NCBI RefSeq assembly: GCF_004103825.1
Contig: NZ_RYFI01000010.1
Span: 118,788-182,787, forward strand
DNA: 64,000 nt
Source of the DNA: Hansschlegelia zhihuaiae
Lineage (GTDB): Bacteria > Pseudomonadota > Alphaproteobacteria > Rhizobiales > Methylopilaceae
Reading direction: 5' to 3'
Shown piece after piece: positions 7,247-55,217 of this stretch. The notes under the pieces were generated by a model. That model was not told the origin of the DNA. It searched no databases and worked only from the letters and a program-made list of their open reading frames with translations. Within the stretch, counting starts at the first letter, position 1. Each line of letters starts with the position of its first letter. The translations under genes and the position numbers were made by a program.

Positions 7247-8089
7247 TCAATGCGACATCAGGAGGCACGCGTTGCTGGTCTCCAGCAGGTCGCGCGTCGC
7301 GCCGCCGAGCAGCCATTCCCGCATTCGGCTATGACCGTATGCGCCGGAGACGATGAGATCGGCGCCGAGATCGCCGGTCAGATCGAGGAGTTCGTCAGCA
7401 ATCGACTGAATGTCCCCCGCGCGTATCGAAGGGCGGCAAGCGACGCCGTGGCGCGTGAGCCAGGCGCACACGTCCTCCGCGCTTTCGTCGCGCAAGGCCT
7501 TCGAGACCGTCATGACGTGAACTTCGTTTGCTCGCGTCAGAATCGGCAGGGCGTCATGAACGGCGCGACGGGCCTCCCGGGTGTCCTTCCACGCGACCAC
7601 GACCTTATGGGCGGTCATGTGGTCCTTCTCGGGCGGCACGATCAGGATCGGCCGTCCGCATTCCATGGCGATCGTTCCAGGCGAGACGCCGAGATTGGGA
7701 TCGCGCTCGTCATACGTCGCGCCCCGGCCGACCACGATGATGTCGGCGGCGCGCGCCTGCTCGATCAGAAACCGTTCGGGATGGGCGAAAGCGGCGCGCC
7801 ACTCGACGTCATTGCGCGAACCGGCGACGGCTTCGAAAGCGCGTTTGGCGGCCGCGAGGTCGCGCGAGGTTCGGTGGCGCTCCTCTTCGGTCACCTCCTC
7901 GGCGACGTTCGGAAGTCCTTCGGCATAGACCGGCGCGAGCGGCTGCTCGGCCGCGACGCCGATGAGCCGGGCGCCAAACTCGTCGGCCAGCGTCGCTGCG
8001 AGCCGGCCCCGCGCTTCCGCCCACGGGCCGAGATCGAAATGGGCCATCACGCTGGCGAACCGGGAGAGACCAGCCTCATGCGCGCTCAT
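7247..8089 (-). CDS. Universal stress protein, tandem UspA domains
   Basis: 280 residues, two UspA folds. The second ends with the nucleotide-binding pattern G-x2-G-x9-G (from SGAYGHSR to LLGGATRDLL) followed by a C-terminal LLMSH strand, so ATP binding is plausible. The closest relative in the window is the Usp at 31380-32219: both share ERFLIEQARAAD, PPEKD and WKDTREARRA. Start ATG follows GGGAG. The FNR/FixK-like site 8149-8162 is centred 66 bases upstream, so induction at low oxygen is likely. Cytoplasmic stress protein; exact role unknown. Confidence 0.92.
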   Translation of the reverse strand: MSAHEAGLSRFASVMAHFDLGPWAEARGRLAATLADEFGARLIGVAAEQPLAPVYAEGLPNVAEEVTEEERHRTSRDLAAAKRAFEAVAGSRNDVEWRAAFAHPERFLIEQARAADIIVVGRGATYDERDPNLGVSPGTIAMECGRPILIVPPEKDHMTAHKVVVAWKDTREARRAVHDALPILTRANEVHVMTVSKALRDESAEDVCAWLTRHGVACRPSIRAGDIQSIADELLDLTGDLGADLIVSGAYGHSRMREWLLGGATRDLLETSNACLLMSH

Positions 8090-8148: not shown

Positions 8149-8162
8149 TTGATGCGCGTCAA
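8149..8162 (-). promoter_or_regulatory. FNR/FixK-like operator
   Basis: TTGATGCGCGTCAA matches TTGAY-N4-RTCAA. A promoter with this site at -41.5 would start near 8114 and leave a leader of about 25 bases before the Usp at 8089. Confidence 0.75.
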
Positions 8163-8180: not shown

Positions 8181-8543
8181 TCAGGGCCCTGCGCTCTCGA
8201 GCGATTTGAGGTAGGCGATCAGATCCGTGATCTCGGCGCTGTCGAGCCGGAACTGAGGCATGGACGGATGTCCCGTCTGGATGCCTTCGGCGAAAGCCTC
8301 GGCGAGCGTCTCGACGGGGTAACGTTCATGCAGCGTGCGGAACGGCGGCGCGATCTTGAGAGGACTTGCGCCGCGCGGGCCGATCGCGTGACACATCGCG
8401 CAATGCGTCTTCGCGAATGTCTGACCTCGCTGAGCTCTCGGCTCCAACGCCGACGCCGGGGGCGCGAAGGCGAGTGAAAGGGCGGAGGCGGCGACCAGCG
8501 CCGCCCAGGAAAGACGCTGAGGATTAGCCACGGAGATGAGCAT
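8181..8543 (-). CDS. Small secreted c-type cytochrome
   Basis: 120 residues with an N-terminal signal peptide (hydrophobic run ending PPASALE, about residue 34), one haem-binding CAMCH (about residues 48-52) and a downstream HPSMPQF that can supply the Met axial ligand. It is a class I monohaem cytochrome, probably periplasmic, and could shuttle electrons to a terminal oxidase such as the cbb3 enzyme encoded nearby. Its start lies inside the end of the zeta-like gene (20-base overlap), so it is the third gene of the Usp/zeta-like/cytochrome operon. Confidence 0.88.
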   Translation of the reverse strand: MLISVANPQRLSWAALVAASALSLAFAPPASALEPRAQRGQTFAKTHCAMCHAIGPRGASPLKIAPPFRTLHERYPVETLAEAFAEGIQTGHPSMPQFRLDSAEITDLIAYLKSLESAGP

Positions 8544-8868
8544 CCGCGAGCGCGCCCAGCCGCTCCAGTTTGCGTTGCAGGCGCTCTTCGGTGGCGCGGA
8601 CGCCGAAGACGCCGTGCTTCGCGAGGTCCGTCCGAACCGCCGCGAGCAGGGTTTCGTCGCTCCCTCCTTCGACGTTCGAAAGCATCAGCGTACGGCCGTA
8701 ATCGTCGGCCGCAGCTCCGCTGAGGCCGATCAAATGACCGACCCAGCGCCCGAACATCCTGTCGCGCCGCGCATGCGCCTGAAAAGCGACGTCGCGTTCA
8801 TGCACGAAGCCGGACTCGGCGGCGCGCTCTCTCTGTTCCAGCATGTCAGGAGTTTCCCGCGTTGTCAT
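8524..8868 (-). CDS. ATPase inhibitor subunit zeta homologue (DUF1476)
   Basis: 114 residues. The sequence fits the alphaproteobacterial DUF1476/zeta family: QRERAAESGFVHE, then FQAHARRDRMFGRW, LIGLSGAAADDY and a charged C-terminal helix. In Paracoccus and relatives zeta binds F1-ATPase and blocks ATP hydrolysis, like mitochondrial IF1. Here it sits between a Usp gene (overlapping it by 23 bases) and a cytochrome c gene, behind an FNR-type site, so it may limit ATP loss when respiration fails. The usual housekeeping zeta gene is expected elsewhere. Family assignment is by recalled pattern; inhibitory activity is inferred. Confidence 0.8.
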   Translation of the reverse strand: MTTRETPDMLEQRERAAESGFVHERDVAFQAHARRDRMFGRWVGHLIGLSGAAADDYGRTLMLSNVEGGSDETLLAAVRTDLAKHGVFGVRATEERLQRKLERLGALADAHLRG

Positions 8869-9409
8869 GGACGCCCTCGGCTGCTGAAAGGCTGCGCTGA
8901 GCAGTAGTCTCCACAGACTTGCGCAGCACGAGAACTGGAATGTCCGAGTGGGTCAGCACCTTGTGGGTGACAGATCCCAGCACGATCGCCGACAGACCGC
9001 GGCGGCCATGACTGGCCATCGCGATGAGGTCGCAATTGTGTTCATGCGCGACCTTTATGATCTCCTCATAGGGCTGGTCGCTCCACTTTCGGACAGAGGA
9101 ATGCGGAACGCCGGCGTCATCCGCCCACGCGCCCGCCTGCTGGAGGAGCTTGTCGGCGTGCGCCTCAGCGTGCCGCTCATACTCCTCGCGCGTCGACTCG
9201 ATCATCTCAACCGAGGTCGTCAGGACACGGAATGGCTCATTGACTGTGAGAAGCACGACGGATGCGCCGATTGAGGCCGCAAGCTCGAGAGCCTCGAAAA
9301 CAGCGCCCTGGCTGAGCGCGCTGCCGTCGGTGGGCACGAGTATGCGACGATAGGGCGGCCTCGATCTCTCGAGTTCGACGCTCATCACGGCGATGGTGGA
9401 TGACGACAT
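8846..9409 (-). CDS. Universal stress protein, single UspA domain
   Basis: 187 residues from an ATG preceded by CAGGAGCGAGAA. Strand 1 is RRILVPTDGS (about residues 21-30) and the ATP-binding stretch is ASHG, nine residues, then GS (ASHGRRGLSAIVLGSV), giving (A/G)-x2-G-x9-G-S. It ends LTHSDIPVLVLRKS plus a 30-residue tail. It is a clear paralogue of the Usp at 42345-42863 (shared EEHS/EYERH helix and SHGRRG-SA-V-GS block). First gene of an operon with the zeta-like protein and cytochrome c; the FNR-type box 9472-9485 lies upstream. Confidence 0.93.
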   Translation of the reverse strand: MSSSTIAVMSVELERSRPPYRRILVPTDGSALSQGAVFEALELAASIGASVVLLTVNEPFRVLTTSVEMIESTREEYERHAEAHADKLLQQAGAWADDAGVPHSSVRKWSDQPYEEIIKVAHEHNCDLIAMASHGRRGLSAIVLGSVTHKVLTHSDIPVLVLRKSVETTAQRSLSAAEGVHDNAGNS

Positions 9410-9471: not shown

Positions 9472-9485
9472 TTGATCCCGATCAA
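9472..9485 (-). promoter_or_regulatory. FNR/FixK operator (perfect)
   Basis: TTGATCCCGATCAA is a perfect TTGAT-N4-ATCAA. Its centre is 69 bases before the Usp start at 9409, predicting a leader of about 28 bases for the Usp/zeta-like/cytochrome operon. Confidence 0.85.
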
Positions 9486-9593: not shown

Positions 9594-10061
9594 TCAGCTT
9601 TGACCGACGGCTTCGAGCGCTGTTTGAGAGGCGCCGGCTTCAGGCGCGTCCTCGACCGAGGCGATGCGAAATGCGAAGCTGTCCTTCTCATCGGAAAGCG
9701 TCACATATTCTCCGGGCGTGAACTGATGCAGGTCGAAGCGGTAGCCGGCCTCATCGTCATCGCGCCGGCTTGCGTCGAAATCGAGCAGCCAGGTCGAGCC
9801 GCCGGCGCCTCCCGCGCGGTGGATGAGCATCCCCACGCGCACCGGTGACCCCGCCCAGAACCTGACGGCGCGGCAGCGCGCTCGCTGCTTTCTCCACAGA
9901 ACCGGATCAAGCTTGCCGGCCGAAGTCAGCGGCGCGACGAAGGAATAGCCATGGTCTTGGCTTCCCTCGGGAAACGTGGGGCATCGCGCGACGTGAAGCG
10001 TGATTTGCTTCAGTCGTGACGGGTGTCGCTTGCGTTCGACGGTGATGGGTTTTGGCGGCAT
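9594..10061 (-). CDS. Unrecognised protein, family member 1 of 3 in this window
   Basis: 155 residues, no signal peptide or membrane segment. I do not recognise the family. It shares a clear block order with the proteins at 58105-58617 and 58628-59128: a basic N terminus, then Y-FVAPL, a Trp-Lys plus CRAVRFW stretch (about residues 57-70), a Gly-rich turn and W-L-DFD (about 85-95), then GEYVTLSD (about 118-125) and a final F-I-SVE. The pattern suggests a small beta-rich soluble domain. An exact FNR-type box lies 61 bases upstream, so it is probably made at low oxygen. Confidence 0.8.
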   Translation of the reverse strand: MPPKPITVERKRHPSRLKQITLHVARCPTFPEGSQDHGYSFVAPLTSAGKLDPVLWRKQRARCRAVRFWAGSPVRVGMLIHRAGGAGGSTWLLDFDASRRDDDEAGYRFDLHQFTPGEYVTLSDEKDSFAFRIASVEDAPEAGASQTALEAVGQS

Positions 10062-10115: not shown

Positions 10116-10129
10116 TTGATCTTGATCAA
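10116..10129 (-). promoter_or_regulatory. FNR/FixK operator (perfect)
   Basis: TTGATCTTGATCAA, perfect palindromic halves. A -41.5 position predicts a 20-base leader for the unrecognised gene starting at 10061. It lies between that gene and the 3' end of hemA. Confidence 0.85.
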
Positions 10130-29200: not shown

Positions 29201-29214
29201 TTGATCTGGATCAA
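29201..29214 (+). promoter_or_regulatory. FNR/FixK operator (perfect) of fnrN
   Basis: TTGATCTGGATCAA, exact consensus. Centre 74 bases before the fnrN start; predicted leader about 32 bases. Suggests autoregulation or cross-regulation. Confidence 0.85.
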
Positions 29215-29280: not shown

Positions 29281-30051
29281 ATGGCGGACCTCAACGACGT
29301 CGACGCGACGGGCAGTCCTTGCAGCGGTGAAGCACGAGTTCTCGGCCAGACCCGCTGCCGCGCCGCCCAGGCGGCTTCCTGCGATAGTTGTGGCGTCAAG
29401 GACGTCAGTGTGTGCTCGGCGCTCGAGGCTGTCGAACTCGAGGCTTTCAACGCACTTTCCGAAAAGGTGATCTTCCGTTCCAAGGAGACATTGTTTCTCC
29501 AAGGCGACGACGCTCGCGCGGTCTACAACGTCACTTGCGGAACGCTGCGGCTCTACAAGCTATTGCCGGACGGACGCCGCCAGATCGTCGGCTTCCTCTT
29601 GCCTGGGGACTTCGTCGGATTGTCTCTCAGCGAGCGCTACGGGTTCTCCGCTGACGCGATCGATCAGGTTTCGGCCTGTCGCTTCGACCGAGGCGACTTC
29701 ATCGACTTCGTCGATCGCAATCCCCATCTCTTGCGCCGTCTTCACCAAGCCGCGACGCATGAACTGACCCTCGCCCAGGATCATATGGTTCTTCTCGGGC
29801 GCCGCGCGGCCGAGGAGAAGGTCGCCGCGTTCCTCTTGGCGATGCGCGGAAGATTGCGCCGCCTTGGCGGCAGCGCCGTCACCATCCCGTTGGCGATGAC
29901 GCGGCAGGATCTAGCCGATCACCTTGGCCTTACGCTCGAGACCGTCAGTCGGGTGGTGTCGAAGCTTGCCCGGGAAAAGACCATTCTCGTCGTTCCCGAC
30001 GGACTGAGGATCATGGACGCCGGACGCCTGGAGCAGATCGGCGCCAGCTGA
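29281..30051 (+). CDS. fnrN: FNR-type oxygen-sensing transcription regulator (FnrN-like) 1
   Basis: 256 residues from ATG 29281 after GGGAAGAG. N-terminal cysteines C34-x2-C37-x7-C45 and C133 match the four ligands of the FNR 4Fe-4S cluster. cAMP-domain-like barrel (RRQIVGFLLPGDFVGLS), dimer helix, and a C-terminal helix-turn-helix LADHLGLTLETVSRVVSKL whose E-SR recognition pattern fits TTGA-N6-TCAA sites. It should bind DNA only without oxygen. Its paralogue is at 46939-47727. It overlaps the convergent gene 29911-30321 at the 3' end. Confidence 0.95.
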   Translation: MADLNDVDATGSPCSGEARVLGQTRCRAAQAASCDSCGVKDVSVCSALEAVELEAFNALSEKVIFRSKETLFLQGDDARAVYNVTCGTLRLYKLLPDGRRQIVGFLLPGDFVGLSLSERYGFSADAIDQVSACRFDRGDFIDFVDRNPHLLRRLHQAATHELTLAQDHMVLLGRRAAEEKVAAFLLAMRGRLRRLGGSAVTIPLAMTRQDLADHLGLTLETVSRVVSKLAREKTILVVPDGLRIMDAGRLEQIGAS

Positions 30052-31379: not shown

Positions 31380-32219
31380 ATGAGCACGACCCAGACTGGC
31401 GGTGGTTTCGCCAGCATTCTCACGCACTTTGATCTCACTCCCCAGTCGGAAGCGCGTGGCAGGCTTGCGGTGCAGCTAGCCGAACAGCACGGTGCGCATT
31501 TCATCGGCGCCGCGGCGGAGCAGCAATTGCTTGAGGTCTACAACGACATGACGGTCAACGTTTCGGCGACCGTGTCGGACGAGGAGCGGGCCCGCGTAGA
31601 AGGAGACCTGAAAGCAGTCCGCCGCATTTTCGACGCCGTCGTCGGCGCCCGCAACGATGTCGAATGGCGGTCCTGCGTCACCGATCCAGAACGATTTCTG
31701 ATCGAGCAGGCGCGCGCCGCGGATCTCGTGGTGATCGGTCGACGCTCGACCTACGACGCCCGGGACGGAACGCTCGGCGTCCGCCCCGGAAATATCGTTC
31801 TGGAGTGCGGCCGGCCGATCCTCGTCGTTCCGCCTGAGAAGGATTATCTCGCGGCTCACAAGGTCTTGGTCGCGTGGAAGGACACGCGCGAGGCCCGGCG
31901 CGCGCTGCGTGACGCCCTGCCGATCCTGAGACAGGCGAACGAGGTCGTCGTCATGACGGCCGCTCCCGCCTACCGCGACGCCGGCGCGGAAGACGTCTCC
32001 ATCTGGCTGGACCGGCATGGCGTGCGGTCCCGGGTTTCGGTCCACACCGGAGAGGTCGCGAACGTCGCCGCCCAATTGATCGACGTCGCCGACGATATCG
32101 GCGCGGATCTCATCGTCTCCGGCGCCTATGGCCACAGCCGGACCCGCGAATGGTTCTTCGGCGGCGCGACGCGCGACCTCCTGGAGAACTCGAAGCACTG
32201 CCTGTTCATGTCCCATTGA
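31380..32219 (+). CDS. Universal stress protein, tandem UspA domains
   Basis: 279 residues from the ATG after GAGGAGGAGCGCCGC. Two UspA folds; the second ends SGAYGHSRTREWFFGGATRDL, giving the G-x2-G-x9-G nucleotide-binding pattern. Paralogue of the Usp at 7247-8089, with which it shares long identical stretches (ERFLIEQARAAD; AWKDTREARRA). One base separates its stop from the start of the acyl-CoA synthetase/GNAT gene, so the two are co-translated and may be enzyme and substrate. Confidence 0.93.
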   Translation: MSTTQTGGGFASILTHFDLTPQSEARGRLAVQLAEQHGAHFIGAAAEQQLLEVYNDMTVNVSATVSDEERARVEGDLKAVRRIFDAVVGARNDVEWRSCVTDPERFLIEQARAADLVVIGRRSTYDARDGTLGVRPGNIVLECGRPILVVPPEKDYLAAHKVLVAWKDTREARRALRDALPILRQANEVVVMTAAPAYRDAGAEDVSIWLDRHGVRSRVSVHTGEVANVAAQLIDVADDIGADLIVSGAYGHSRTREWFFGGATRDLLENSKHCLFMSH

Positions 32220-32220
32220 G

Positions 32221-34923
32221 ATGAGCAGCTTCGGTCTGGACCGGCTGTTCCAGCCGACCTCCGTCGCGGTGGTGGGGGCCAGCGACCGGGCCGGCTCGTT
32301 GGGCCGGTCCGTCATGGCGAATCTGGTCGGCGGCGGCTTCGCGGGGCGGATCGCTCCCGTCAACCCTAGGCGAGCGACCGTCGGCGGTCTGAAGGCGTGC
32401 TCGTCCCTTCGTGACCTTGCGGGACCGATCGACCTCGCCGTCGTCTGCACGCCGCCGACCGCGGTCCCGTCCGTGATCGAGGACGCCGCAGCGATCCACG
32501 CCGGCGCCGCGCTGATCCTGACCGCCGGCGTTTCCCGCGGCTCTGGATCGCAGTCCGAGGTCATCCTGGACATCGCTCGCCACCATGGATTGCGGCTGAT
32601 CGGACCGAACTCCTTCGGCTTGCTCGCGCCGCACGCCGCATTGAATGCGAGCTTCGCCGCAGGACCGGCCGCGAAAGGCGACCTGGCGCTCATCAGTCAG
32701 TCCGGCGCCGTGGCCGCGGCCTTAGTGGGCTGGGGGTCTCGGCGAGCGCTTGGATTTTCGGCCGTCGTCTCGCTTGGCGACGCCCTCGACGTCGATGTCG
32801 CCGACTGCCTCGATCACTTCGCGGGCGACCGGCGGTCGCGCGCCATCCTGCTCTATGTCGAGGCCATCACGGACGCCAAAAAATTCATGTCAGCGGCCCG
32901 CGCGGCGGCCAGGGTCAAGCCTGTGGTGGTGGTTAAGGGCGGCCGGCACGCCGCGGGCGCAAGGGCGGCCGCCACCCATACGGGCGCGCTGGCGGGCGCC
33001 GACGAGGTCTATGAAGCGGCGTTCCGGCGGGCCGGACTGCTTCGGGTGCTCGATCTCGACCAGCTCTTCGCCGCTGCTGAAGTACTCGGACGACGCCAAT
33101 GGGATCGCGGCGATCGACTTGCGATCCTGACCAACGGCGGCGGCGTCGGCGTGCTGGCCGTGGACCGCCATCTCGACATGGGAGGAAAGCTCGCGGCGCT
33201 CTCGACCGAGACGCTTGCCTCGCTCGATAAGGCGCTCCCTGCCACCTGGTCGCGCGCCAACCCCGTCGACATTATCGGCGACGCCGACGCCCAGCGTTTT
33301 TCAAGCGCGATCGAGATCCTGCTCGCGGCTCATGAAGTCGACGCCATCGTGGCCCTCGAGGCGCCTACCGCGCTGGCCGCCGCCGAGACGACCGCAAAAT
33401 CGGTCGTCGCCGCAGTCGAGGCGTCAAAGTCTCGCGCCATGCCAGTCAAACCCGTGCTGGCCTCGTGGCTCGGGGCAGGGCCGGACATCCAGAAGATCTT
33501 CGCCGAAGCAAAGATCCCTCATTTCGAAACCGAGAGCGACGCAATCGCGGCGTTCGATTACCTGACACGGCACCGCAGAGCGCAGGCCGCGCTTCACGCG
33601 ACGCCGACCGCGGCGCCCTTCGATCAACGACCTTACGTCGAAGCAATCCAGCGCATGATCCGCTCGGCGTTGGCCGAGGGCCGCGCCTGGCTGGATCCGG
33701 TCGAAGCGGCCAGCCTGTTGAAGGCGTTTCGCATCCCGATGGTCGAGTCGGTGGAGGCCTCCACGGCCGGCGAAGCGGCGGTCGCGGCGCGTCAGCTGTT
33801 GCTCAACGCTGAGGCCGTCGCCTTGAAGATCCGATCCCGCCTGATCGTTCACAAATCCGACGTTGGCGGGGTATGCCTCGATCTGAAAACTCCGGCCCAG
33901 GTCGAGCTGGCCGCAACCGATATGCTGGCGCGCGTCCGTCTGGCTTGTCCCGAGGTCAATGACGCAGGCTTCCTGCTGCAGCCCATGGTTCGCCGCGGCG
34001 AAGCGCGCGAGCTCATCGCGGGCCTTTCCGACGACCCGACATTCGGCCCGGTCATTCTGTTCGGCCGCGGCGGCGTGGGGGTCGAGGTTTATCGCGACAC
34101 CGCGCTGGGACTGCCTCCGCTCGACCAGCCGCTCGCCGCCGACCTGATCGACCAAACCGAAGTGGGTCGGACGCTCGCCGCCTATCGCGACGTGCCGGCC
34201 GCCGACCGCAAAGCCGTGGAATCCGTGCTTGTCGCGCTTGGCGAGATCGCTTCGGCCCTGCCCGAGGTGCGCTCCATCGATCTGAACCCGCTGCTGGCCG
34301 ACGCCGGCGGCGTTCTTGCCGTCGACGCTCGCATCGCGATCGCTGGCTCGGACGCGTCGCGGATGGTCATCCGGCCCTATCCTTTGCATTGGACCCGAAC
34401 GCTCAAGACGCTCGCCGGCGATTCCTACGTCGCGCGCCCGTTGAGGGCCGAGGACGAGGTCCTGATCGGGCGGCTTCTTGCAGCCGTCGAGCCCGACGAC
34501 CTGCGAATGAGGTTCTTCGCGCCGGTGCGCCACCTCGAGCACGGATTTCTGACGCGGCTCGTCCATCTCGACTATGCCCGGGCGATCGCCTTTGTCGCGC
34601 TCGCCGCCGACGGGGAGGCGGCGGGCGTCGTGCGTCTGCACTGCGACGCCGATCACAAGGCCGGCGAGTTCGCCATTCTCGTCCGGAGCGACCTGAAGGG
34701 GCGCGGCGTCGGTTGGGCGCTGATGCAGCTGATGCTGGAATGGGCGCGATCCGAGAACATCGCGACGGTGTGGGGCGACGTCCTGAAGGCCAACGTCGAG
34801 ATGTCCGCGATGTGCCGGGAGCTTGGGTTTGTCGCGATCGCCGGAGGAGACGACGAGGCGACGACCTTCTCGGTCGACATTCGTGCGCTGGATATGGCGA
34901 GCGCCGCCGAAGCGGCGGCCTGA
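32221..34923 (+). CDS. Fused ADP-forming acyl-CoA synthetase / GNAT acetyltransferase
   Basis: 900 residues. Domains in order: CoA-binding (SVAVVGASDRAGSLG, residues 14-28), succinyl-CoA-ligase-like flavodoxin domains (LISQSGAVAAA; TNGGGVGVLAVD), ATP-grasp (ALKIRSRLIVHKSDVGGV, about 530-550; FGRGGVGVEVYRD) and a C-terminal GNAT domain (RSDLKGRGVGWALMQLMLE, about 820-840). Relatives include Pat/PatZ-type protein lysine acetyltransferases and ADP-forming acetate-CoA ligases. Only CoA and nucleotide sites can be seen; whether the synthetase part is active is undetermined. Coupled to the Usp upstream. Confidence 0.9.
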   Translation: MSSFGLDRLFQPTSVAVVGASDRAGSLGRSVMANLVGGGFAGRIAPVNPRRATVGGLKACSSLRDLAGPIDLAVVCTPPTAVPSVIEDAAAIHAGAALILTAGVSRGSGSQSEVILDIARHHGLRLIGPNSFGLLAPHAALNASFAAGPAAKGDLALISQSGAVAAALVGWGSRRALGFSAVVSLGDALDVDVADCLDHFAGDRRSRAILLYVEAITDAKKFMSAARAAARVKPVVVVKGGRHAAGARAAATHTGALAGADEVYEAAFRRAGLLRVLDLDQLFAAAEVLGRRQWDRGDRLAILTNGGGVGVLAVDRHLDMGGKLAALSTETLASLDKALPATWSRANPVDIIGDADAQRFSSAIEILLAAHEVDAIVALEAPTALAAAETTAKSVVAAVEASKSRAMPVKPVLASWLGAGPDIQKIFAEAKIPHFETESDAIAAFDYLTRHRRAQAALHATPTAAPFDQRPYVEAIQRMIRSALAEGRAWLDPVEAASLLKAFRIPMVESVEASTAGEAAVAARQLLLNAEAVALKIRSRLIVHKSDVGGVCLDLKTPAQVELAATDMLARVRLACPEVNDAGFLLQPMVRRGEARELIAGLSDDPTFGPVILFGRGGVGVEVYRDTALGLPPLDQPLAADLIDQTEVGRTLAAYRDVPAADRKAVESVLVALGEIASALPEVRSIDLNPLLADAGGVLAVDARIAIAGSDASRMVIRPYPLHWTRTLKTLAGDSYVARPLRAEDEVLIGRLLAAVEPDDLRMRFFAPVRHLEHGFLTRLVHLDYARAIAFVALAADGEAAGVVRLHCDADHKAGEFAILVRSDLKGRGVGWALMQLMLEWARSENIATVWGDVLKANVEMSAMCRELGFVAIAGGDDEATTFSVDIRALDMASAAEAAA

Positions 34924-46938: not shown

Positions 46939-47727
46939 ATGCACATTCAGCAACCCGCCAGCGTTTCAGCGTTCTCGCCCGAAATCCTGTCCGCAGCGTA
47001 TCGCGACGCCCGCGCGGCTGAGGTCGCGCATTGCGAAGACGCTCCGAGAGGCCGTTGCTCAGCGTGTCCGGTGCGCGGCTTGAGCGTCTGCGCCGCGCTT
47101 GCCCAGGACGAACTTCCAAGGCTCGAACAGCTCTCGGATCCTGTGCGCTTTCGGGCCGGCGAAACCATTCTGCTGGAAGGCGATCCGGCCGGCGCCGTCT
47201 ACAACCTTAAGGCTGGGATGGTGCGTCTGTACCGCATCTTGCCCGATGGCCGCCGCCAGATCGTGGGCTTCATGATGCCCGGCGATTTCATCGGCCTGTC
47301 GCTCTCCGACCGGAATGGCTTTTCGGCCGATGCGGTCGACGATGTCGCCGCCTGTCGTTTCGACCGCGCCGCATATACGAAGTTCGTCGGCCAGACGCCT
47401 CATCTTCTGAGACAGATGCATGAAGCGGCGAGCCATGAGCTGACAATCGCGCAAGACCACATGGTTCTGCTCGGCCGGCGCAGCGCCGAGGAAAAAGTGG
47501 CTTCGTTTCTGATGTCCCAACGCGATCGGATGCGCAGGCTCGGCGCGAGCGTCGTGACGCTCGCTCTGCCAATGTCGAGGACCGACTTGGCCGACCATCT
47601 AGGCTTGACGATCGAGACCGTCAGCCGAGTGATCTCGAGGCTTGCGCGCGCTCGGGTCGTCTTGGTCGTGCCGAACGGAGTGCGCCTCCTCGACCTCGCC
47701 AAACTGGAAAGCCTGGCGGCGTCCTAA
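46939..47727 (+). CDS. FNR-type oxygen-sensing transcription regulator (FnrN-like) 2
   Basis: 262 residues; GGAGG lies eight bases before the ATG. Cysteines C40-x2-C43-x7-C51 and a fourth in VAACRFDR match FNR cluster ligands. Barrel RRQIVGFMMPGDFIGLS and helix-turn-helix LADHLGLTIETVSRVISRL are nearly identical to those of the regulator at 29281-30051, so both should recognise the same TTGA-N6-TCAA sites. Unlike the first copy it lacks an upstream FNR box. Confidence 0.94.
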   Translation: MHIQQPASVSAFSPEILSAAYRDARAAEVAHCEDAPRGRCSACPVRGLSVCAALAQDELPRLEQLSDPVRFRAGETILLEGDPAGAVYNLKAGMVRLYRILPDGRRQIVGFMMPGDFIGLSLSDRNGFSADAVDDVAACRFDRAAYTKFVGQTPHLLRQMHEAASHELTIAQDHMVLLGRRSAEEKVASFLMSQRDRMRRLGASVVTLALPMSRTDLADHLGLTIETVSRVISRLARARVVLVVPNGVRLLDLAKLESLAAS

Positions 47728-54569: not shown

Positions 54570-55217
54570 TCAGGCGGCGATGCTGATCGTGTCGTCTACG
54601 GATTTCACGCCGGCGGCCGACCAAGCGGCCTGCTCGGCGATGCGGCGCTCCTGCCAGCTGTGCACACGACCCGAAAGGCTGACTTTGTCGTTTGTGACGG
54701 TGACGTGGATCGCAGCCGCGTCGAGCGCGGCGTTCCGCTTCAGAGCGTCCTCGATCTTCTTCTTCACGTCGTCCGCCTTCGGTCGATCGGTAAGCGCGAT
54801 CGTGTTGGACACGCCGACGACTCCGTCGAGTTTCCGCACCGACGACTCCGCGGCCTCGCGCTGGTACTGCCAGTCGACTGTGCCGGACAGGGTGATCCAG
54901 CCGCGCTCGACCTTCACCTTCACGGCGGCCGGCACCATCGTGTTCCAGTCGAGCACTTTGATTGCGCGCTTGGCGATCTCGTCGTCGCTCCGCTTGCCGT
55001 CATAGGGGTAGCGAACCTCGATCTCCTCGGCGATCGCCCTTACCCCCCGAACGCGCTGGGCGGCCTTCTCGGCCGCCACCTTTTCGGCATAGCTCGCCAC
55101 GTGACCGGTCAGCGTGACAACGCCTTCACGAACCGCGACGCCGATGTGAGCAGCGTTCACGACAGGCTCGAATTCGAGCTCTTCCTCCACGAGCGACTTC
55201 AATCCGGCGTCAGACAT
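54570..55217 (-). CDS. BON-domain protein, three tandem domains
   Basis: 215 residues, ATG after AGGAGATGGGACC. Three BON repeats: about 1-70 (GVVTLTGHVASYAEKVAAE), 75-145 (GWITLSGTVDWQYQREAAE) and 148-215 (DKVSLSGRVHSWQERRIAE). No signal peptide, so cytoplasmic unlike OsmY. BON domains are thought to bind lipids or hydrophobic ligands. Box 55342-55355 upstream may control it. Confidence 0.93.
   Translation of the reverse strand: MSDAGLKSLVEEELEFEPVVNAAHIGVAVREGVVTLTGHVASYAEKVAAEKAAQRVRGVRAIAEEIEVRYPYDGKRSDDEIAKRAIKVLDWNTMVPAAVKVKVERGWITLSGTVDWQYQREAAESSVRKLDGVVGVSNTIALTDRPKADDVKKKIEDALKRNAALDAAAIHVTVTNDKVSLSGRVHSWQERRIAEQAAWSAAGVKSVDDTISIAA

Follow-up and report, generated by a model that had tools for sequence, protein, structure and literature searches.

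A diverged second zeta gene in a conserved FNR-box operon of Hansschlegelia zhihuaiae: a candidate low-oxygen brake on the F1Fo-ATPase

We describe a second, diverged gene for the ATPase-inhibitor zeta family (DUF1476), here called zeta2, in a 64-kb stretch of the Hansschlegelia zhihuaiae genome. This whole stretch of analysed DNA is referred to as the window. On the minus strand, the order is FNR box, Usp, zeta2, cytochrome c. A preliminary description of the DNA had already read a zeta-like gene in an FNR-box operon with a Usp and a cytochrome c, and both the Pfam matches and the perfect box bear this out. The features around the operon are as follows.

9472-9485, no strand assigned: perfect FNR box TTGATCCCGATCAA (pattern match), with its centre 69 bp 5' of the Usp ATG
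8846-9409, minus strand: Usp, first gene of the operon (PF00582, 122 bits)
8524-8844 (start at 8868 less likely), minus strand: zeta2, a diverged DUF1476 / ATPase-inhibitor zeta paralogue of 106 aa (PF07345, 74.8 bits)
8181-8531 (ATG at 8543 possible), minus strand: small c-type cytochrome with one CxxCH (PF00034, 50.7 bits)
7247-8089, minus strand: second Usp-family protein, a 3' neighbour rather than part of the operon core (PF00582, 37.4 bits)
10116-10129, no strand assigned: second perfect FNR box, with its centre about 61 bp before the gene at 9594-10061 (minus strand)

The zeta2 protein matches PF07345 well above the cut-off of 25 bits and covers profile positions 4-100 of 102; it has no NCBIfam match. 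Its sequence also matches the solved zetas 2LL0 (E 5.1e-11), 7VKV (1.5e-6) and 2KZC (1.5e-5). The preliminary description had proposed looking for another DUF1476 gene in the genome, and there is one: the draft assembly (4.62 Mb in 61 contigs, 97.5% complete) has two such genes, a canonical zeta (zeta1) at 138.9 bits and zeta2 at 74.1-74.8 bits. The canonical copy sits on contig 1, another contig than zeta2, and its presence excludes the idea that zeta2 is the only, constitutive zeta gene.

Four loci carry zeta2, namely the window and the loci L066, L067 and L068, and a Usp homologue is in the matching place at the other three. Overlaps of 23 and 20 bases had been noted between the genes of the window, both of which rest on upstream starts that the four-locus comparison speaks against. 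The junction between Usp stop and zeta2 start reads TGA-N-ATG at each of the four loci, so the zeta2 start is most likely at 8844, after a one-base gap, and the protein most likely has 106 aa. As for the upstream ATG at 8868, L066 has no in-frame start 5' of the conserved one, and the extra upstream starts in L067 and L068 are at differing places. The cytochrome c most likely starts with the GTG at 8531, which overlaps the zeta2 stop by 8 bases instead of 20; the overlap of the GTG is also 8 bases in L066, and 4 bases in both L067 and L068. Despite these revised starts, the three genes are tightly coupled. The second Usp-family gene follows the operon in L066 and does not do so directly in L067 or L068.

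All four loci have a perfect FNR box 5' of Usp, with a distance from centre to ATG of 69, 68, 59 and 58 bp. The ten specified bases of the box are identical in all six pairs of loci, and the 40 bases on each side have only 20-38% identity (ungapped) in five of the six pairs; the close pair L067/L068 has 82-85%. We did not see a shared -10 element by eye in the upstream alignment of these loci. From this comparison, the box before the Usp-zeta2 operon looks selected, and we think that an FNR-type regulator very probably puts the operon under low-oxygen control.

Sites of this kind are frequent in the window. There are 16 with at most one mismatch when 0.66 are expected, and none of 100 shuffles reached 16. 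The perfect box occurs five times, and its half-sites do not occur in the window at all in five other arrangements (spacers of 3, 5 and 6, direct repeats and everted repeats). The window holds five of the nine perfect boxes in its genome. The other zeta2 genomes have 4 (G013), 9 (G014) and 2 (G015), and in both G013 and G015 one of these few is the box of the zeta2 operon. In the nine genomes of the genus that lack zeta2, the counts are 2, 0, 0, 0, 4, 4, 1, 0 and 0. The reversed pattern was not found in any of the 13 genomes of the genus, although this is an easy control as it holds other words. In the host genome, neither the 20 kb surrounding the canonical zeta nor the 12 kb surrounding atpA/atpD contains a perfect box. 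Next to the operon, there is also an FNR-like site with one mismatch at 8149-8162, with its centre about 66 bp before the gene at 7247-8089 (minus strand). The spacing between this site and its gene, and between the box at 10116-10129 and the gene at 9594-10061, is much like that of the Usp-zeta2 box; the product of the latter gene has no Pfam or NCBIfam family match.

By its boxes and gene content, the window is a low-oxygen island. It encodes CydAB, CcoN, FixO and CcoG (cbb3 and bd oxidases), further Usps, and a PAS-domain histidine kinase with a response regulator. Three more features are needed here.

46939-47727, plus strand: FNR/FnrL-type regulator with a C-x2-C-x7-C pattern and a Crp-type HTH, a candidate activator
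29290-30051, plus strand (start uncertain): second FNR-type regulator, 60% identical to the first, also with C-x2-C-x7-C
54570-55217, strand not given: BON-like gene, by our own reading of the sequence

The cysteines of the C-x2-C-x7-C pattern we take to be the Fe-S cluster ligands. The first regulator scores 169.5 bits against the FnrL model, below the cut-off of 300, and a perfect FNR box lies just 5' of the second, at 29201. Several of the island genes recur near other zeta2 loci. Among the 13 genomes of the genus, only that of the window has FixO, and none of the other three zeta2 carriers does, so there is no constant link between zeta2 and the cbb3 oxidase. Near the zeta2 locus of G013, the match to the regulator (L147/L151, G013:C1:2213490-2213990) contains internal stops, so this copy may be decayed, though the FNR sites remain. 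The island also encodes a long acetate-CoA-ligase-like protein (32128-34923), the end of which weakly matches an acetyltransferase. Its gene adjoins a Usp gene, and the G013 and G014 islands encode counterparts that are about 73% identical to it.

In a survey of the family, all 18 genomes had a canonical zeta and four of them, all from the genus of the window, also had zeta2. Of the 13 genomes of this genus, 4 have the box, Usp, zeta2 and cytochrome c in this arrangement, and the zeta2 carriers include Methylopila sp. Yamaguchi and Chelatococcus sambhunathii S14. When we searched the order with a zeta2 model, four of 397 genomes matched at 179-188 bits (scores that are high by construction, since the model was built from these four loci) and the next best match was at 76 bits. 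In the class (385 genomes), only the window's own copy scored above 80 bits. The genomes of both searches were an even sample of larger groups, and other carriers may exist. We found no relative in viral contigs.

Within the genus, a homologue of the cytochrome c (E 1e-8) is present in all four genomes with zeta2 and in none of the nine without. By the tree of canonical zetas, two genomes without zeta2 are near relatives of carriers (G016 beside G015, and G007 beside G013 and G014), and neither of the two has a perfect box or a regulator match at E 1e-40. The co-occurrence of the cytochrome c and these two comparisons indicate that zeta2 is an accessory gene. Its presence and absence follow those of its operon and, in the two comparisons, those of the FNR sites. 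Across all nine genomes without zeta2, perfect boxes occur in four and the regulator in three; because of shared ancestry, these counts of zeta2, box and regulator cannot be treated as independent observations.

We also considered whether second DUF1476 copies are low-oxygen copies in general, and rejected this. Among 20 second-copy loci from other genera (10-12.5 kb each, from 19 genomes), none has a perfect box, and homologues of the Usp and cytochrome c are absent from them at E 1e-3. This set covers 20 of the 23 second copies in 22 genomes, counting the copies that the zeta2 model detects. The second copies in G126, G220 and G330 have no box within flanks of about 1.5 kb. We also checked 74 further DUF1476 loci of 2.1-3.3 kb, which represent 70 genes because 4 were fetched twice; just one of them, L046, has a perfect box, which lies 3' of the gene match. 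Four loci are on plasmids (two from Sinorhizobium meliloti, including pSymA, one from Sphingobium and one from Aureimonas; L062, L064, L063 and L065). In the 12 kb taken at each of them there is no perfect box, and their listed neighbours include neither a Usp nor a cytochrome c. Formate dehydrogenase genes lie about 5 kb from the Sphingobium plasmid copy.

Some of the other copies have a different architecture. Eleven second DUF1476 copies are "headless" zeta paralogues, in which the N-terminal R-E-x-A segment is missing and the rest is kept (L110-L114, L116-L120 and L126, from five two-copy f20 genomes, five two-copy f40 genomes and the f35 genome G317). There are also two genomes with two DUF1476 genes close together (L125, at G332:C2:63786 and 64258, and L132 in G656).

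All four zeta2 proteins keep R-E-R-A-x-E in the N-terminal segment and share the conserved signature R-D-R-x-F-G-R-W. The N-terminal part is the better conserved one, with 17 of 35 columns invariant compared with 23 of 73 in the rest, although in the canonical zetas of these genomes 25 of the 35 columns are invariant. The zeta2 N-terminus is also two residues shorter than that of canonical zeta. Values of dN/dS are 0.17-0.30, which indicates purifying selection, with dS near saturation in some pairs.

In a tree of 99 rows, the neighbour of zeta2 was L115, a very long row. We then removed 21 rows that were long or strongly diverged, and in the reduced tree of 78 rows zeta2 forms one clade with support of 100/98 (with the bootstrap not settled) on a branch of about 1.0 change per column. 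The AU test does not reject a topology in which zeta2 groups with the genus's own canonical copies (p-AU 0.219), so zeta2 may have come from duplication with fast change or from acquisition from elsewhere.

The AF2 model of zeta2 has a pLDDT of 85.8 and an extended N-terminal helix (residues 2-38), although the first 20 residues have a pLDDT of only 59-67 and the model was made from just 3 sequences. Its best structure matches are the solved zetas 2KZC, 2LL0 and 7VKV, with Z of 11.7, 9.9 and 8.0 and the next row at 6.5, where values under about 13 can be common among helical bundles. The Foldseek E-values against the solved zetas are weak (0.0055 to 0.025). We conclude that zeta2 is predicted to have the helix-bundle fold of the solved zetas.

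As to the target, the four zeta2 genomes each have four PF00006 matches. For the host genome, we read these by score and frame length as atpA, atpD, a FliI-like ATPase and Rho. We therefore rejected the idea that zeta2 partners with a second F-type or N-type ATPase, with the reservation that the genome is a draft. One F1Fo was found, and so there is one candidate F1 target for zeta2.

Our proposal is that zeta2 is an FNR-induced brake on ATP hydrolysis by F1Fo and that the cytochrome c and Usp belong to the same survival response; we consider the case for this to be evenly balanced. Sequence and comparison support its starting points, which are a diverged second zeta, a conserved box and operon, a low-oxygen setting, a single F1Fo and a predicted zeta fold. 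From there we infer that the box acts on transcription, that zeta2 binds and inhibits F1, and that Usp and cytochrome c have the roles given here. When oxygen falls, one of the island's FNR-type regulators (46939-47727 or 29290-30051) would bind the box at 9472-9485 and the three genes would be switched on. The globular bundle of zeta2 would bind the cell's F1Fo-ATP synthase and the N-terminal helix would go to the catalytic interface, as with the Paracoccus zeta, where it would block ATP hydrolysis. ATP would then be spared while respiration is weak or has stopped. The cytochrome c would serve residual electron flow.

The idea of a zeta inhibitor made at low oxygen was in the preliminary description, and it gains from the second zeta beside the canonical copy, the conserved box and the island setting. 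The brake is favoured by the single F1Fo, the purifying selection, the zeta bundle with an extended helix and the retained R-E-R-A-x-E. It is weakened by the two missing N-terminal residues, by an N-terminal part that is less conserved than in canonical zetas and by the low confidence of the modelled N-terminus, on which the structure cannot decide between an inhibitor and a non-inhibitor. In the Paracoccus zeta, inhibition is carried by the first 14 residues (PMC10469736). The zeta of S. meliloti, which is also in the Rhizobiales, did not inhibit its own F1 (PMC10469736), and in Paracoccus the loss of zeta by deletion gave a less than twofold increase in hydrolysis (PMC5795051). Both findings make inhibition by zeta2 less likely a priori. 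On balance, we would expect that zeta2 inhibits F1 about as readily as that it does not. That it is a dedicated anoxia brake, an FNR-wired paralogue made on demand that locks F1 when respiration stops, we regard as possible and somewhat on the doubtful side.

It is also conceivable that zeta2 binds F1 without inhibiting it and displaces or antagonises zeta1, so that reversal of F1Fo keeps up the proton-motive force in anoxia. This would suit a protein that has diverged far from its co-resident zeta1 and has a shorter N-terminus, and Rhizobiales zetas are present on F1 in low or trace amounts, with the S. meliloti zeta being non-inhibitory, as described in PMC10469736. We find it unlikely; against it, the motif is kept in all four proteins and the N-terminal part is their better conserved one, unlike in the 11 headless copies, where this segment is missing.

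Another reading takes zeta2 off F1 altogether, as a moonlighting DUF1476 protein with some other low-oxygen role alongside Usp or the cytochrome c. A role of this kind was proposed for the Zymomonas zeta (PMC9317440), and the strict co-occurrence of zeta2 with the cytochrome c in the genus (4/4 versus 0/9) would agree with it. However, the predicted zeta fold and the retained motif argue against it, and by eye the cytochrome c has a signal-peptide-like N-terminus, which would put it in another compartment than zeta2; we hold this reading to be improbable. Extra dosage at low oxygen from a redundant accessory zeta with the properties of zeta1 would explain the shared family and predicted fold. 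It would not lead us to expect a separate, long-branched clade with a signature of its own, and we judge it to be very improbable.

Mitochondrial IF1 blocks ATP hydrolysis and not synthesis, and the brake that we propose for zeta2 would work alike. "A bacterial counterpart to IF1", as it was put in the preliminary description, is not a new idea for zeta, which was already described as IF1-like in Paracoccus (PMC5795051, PMC10469736), and the two inhibitors are regarded as analogous rather than homologous (PMC9317440). What would be new is a low-oxygen paralogue. With the zeta of the alphaproteobacterial F1Fo-ATPase (P. denitrificans, 2LL0 and 5DN6), zeta2 has in common the family, the predicted fold and R-E-R-A-x-E; it differs from the P. 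denitrificans protein in being a second, diverged copy that is two residues shorter and is encoded in an FNR-box operon. Paracoccus is said to have a single zeta copy and, in an unpublished remark in the same paper, to modulate zeta expression with oxygen (PMC9317440). We found no oxygen-regulated zeta paralogue in the literature searched (titles and the starts of abstracts among the matches listed).

Judging by its description in PMC9241938, the proposed brake would also be comparable to AtpTheta (atpT) of cyanobacteria, a small separate protein that prevents ATP hydrolysis and is most abundant in darkness. AtpTheta is controlled mainly through mRNA stability, whereas zeta2 has a conserved FNR box. 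The low-oxygen-activated (lxa) locus of Burkholderia cenocepacia is also a low-oxygen island and combines Usps and a cytochrome c with a BON-domain protein (PMC6127331), for which the window has the BON-like gene. Unlike the window, its passages in that paper name no zeta, and the main text does not contain "ATP synthase". The new part is thus the combination, as the zeta family, the idea of inhibition and FNR islands are each already known.

The extent to which alphaproteobacterial zeta guards ATP in vivo is disputed, with a small effect of its deletion on hydrolysis in one study (PMC5795051) and strong effects on growth claimed in another (PMC9317440). A strain with two zetas, one of which has an FNR box and is absent from close relatives, opens this role to a direct test. 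Zeta2 could also explain why a constitutive zeta in the Rhizobiales can be non-inhibitory, as the brake would be supplied only when it is needed.
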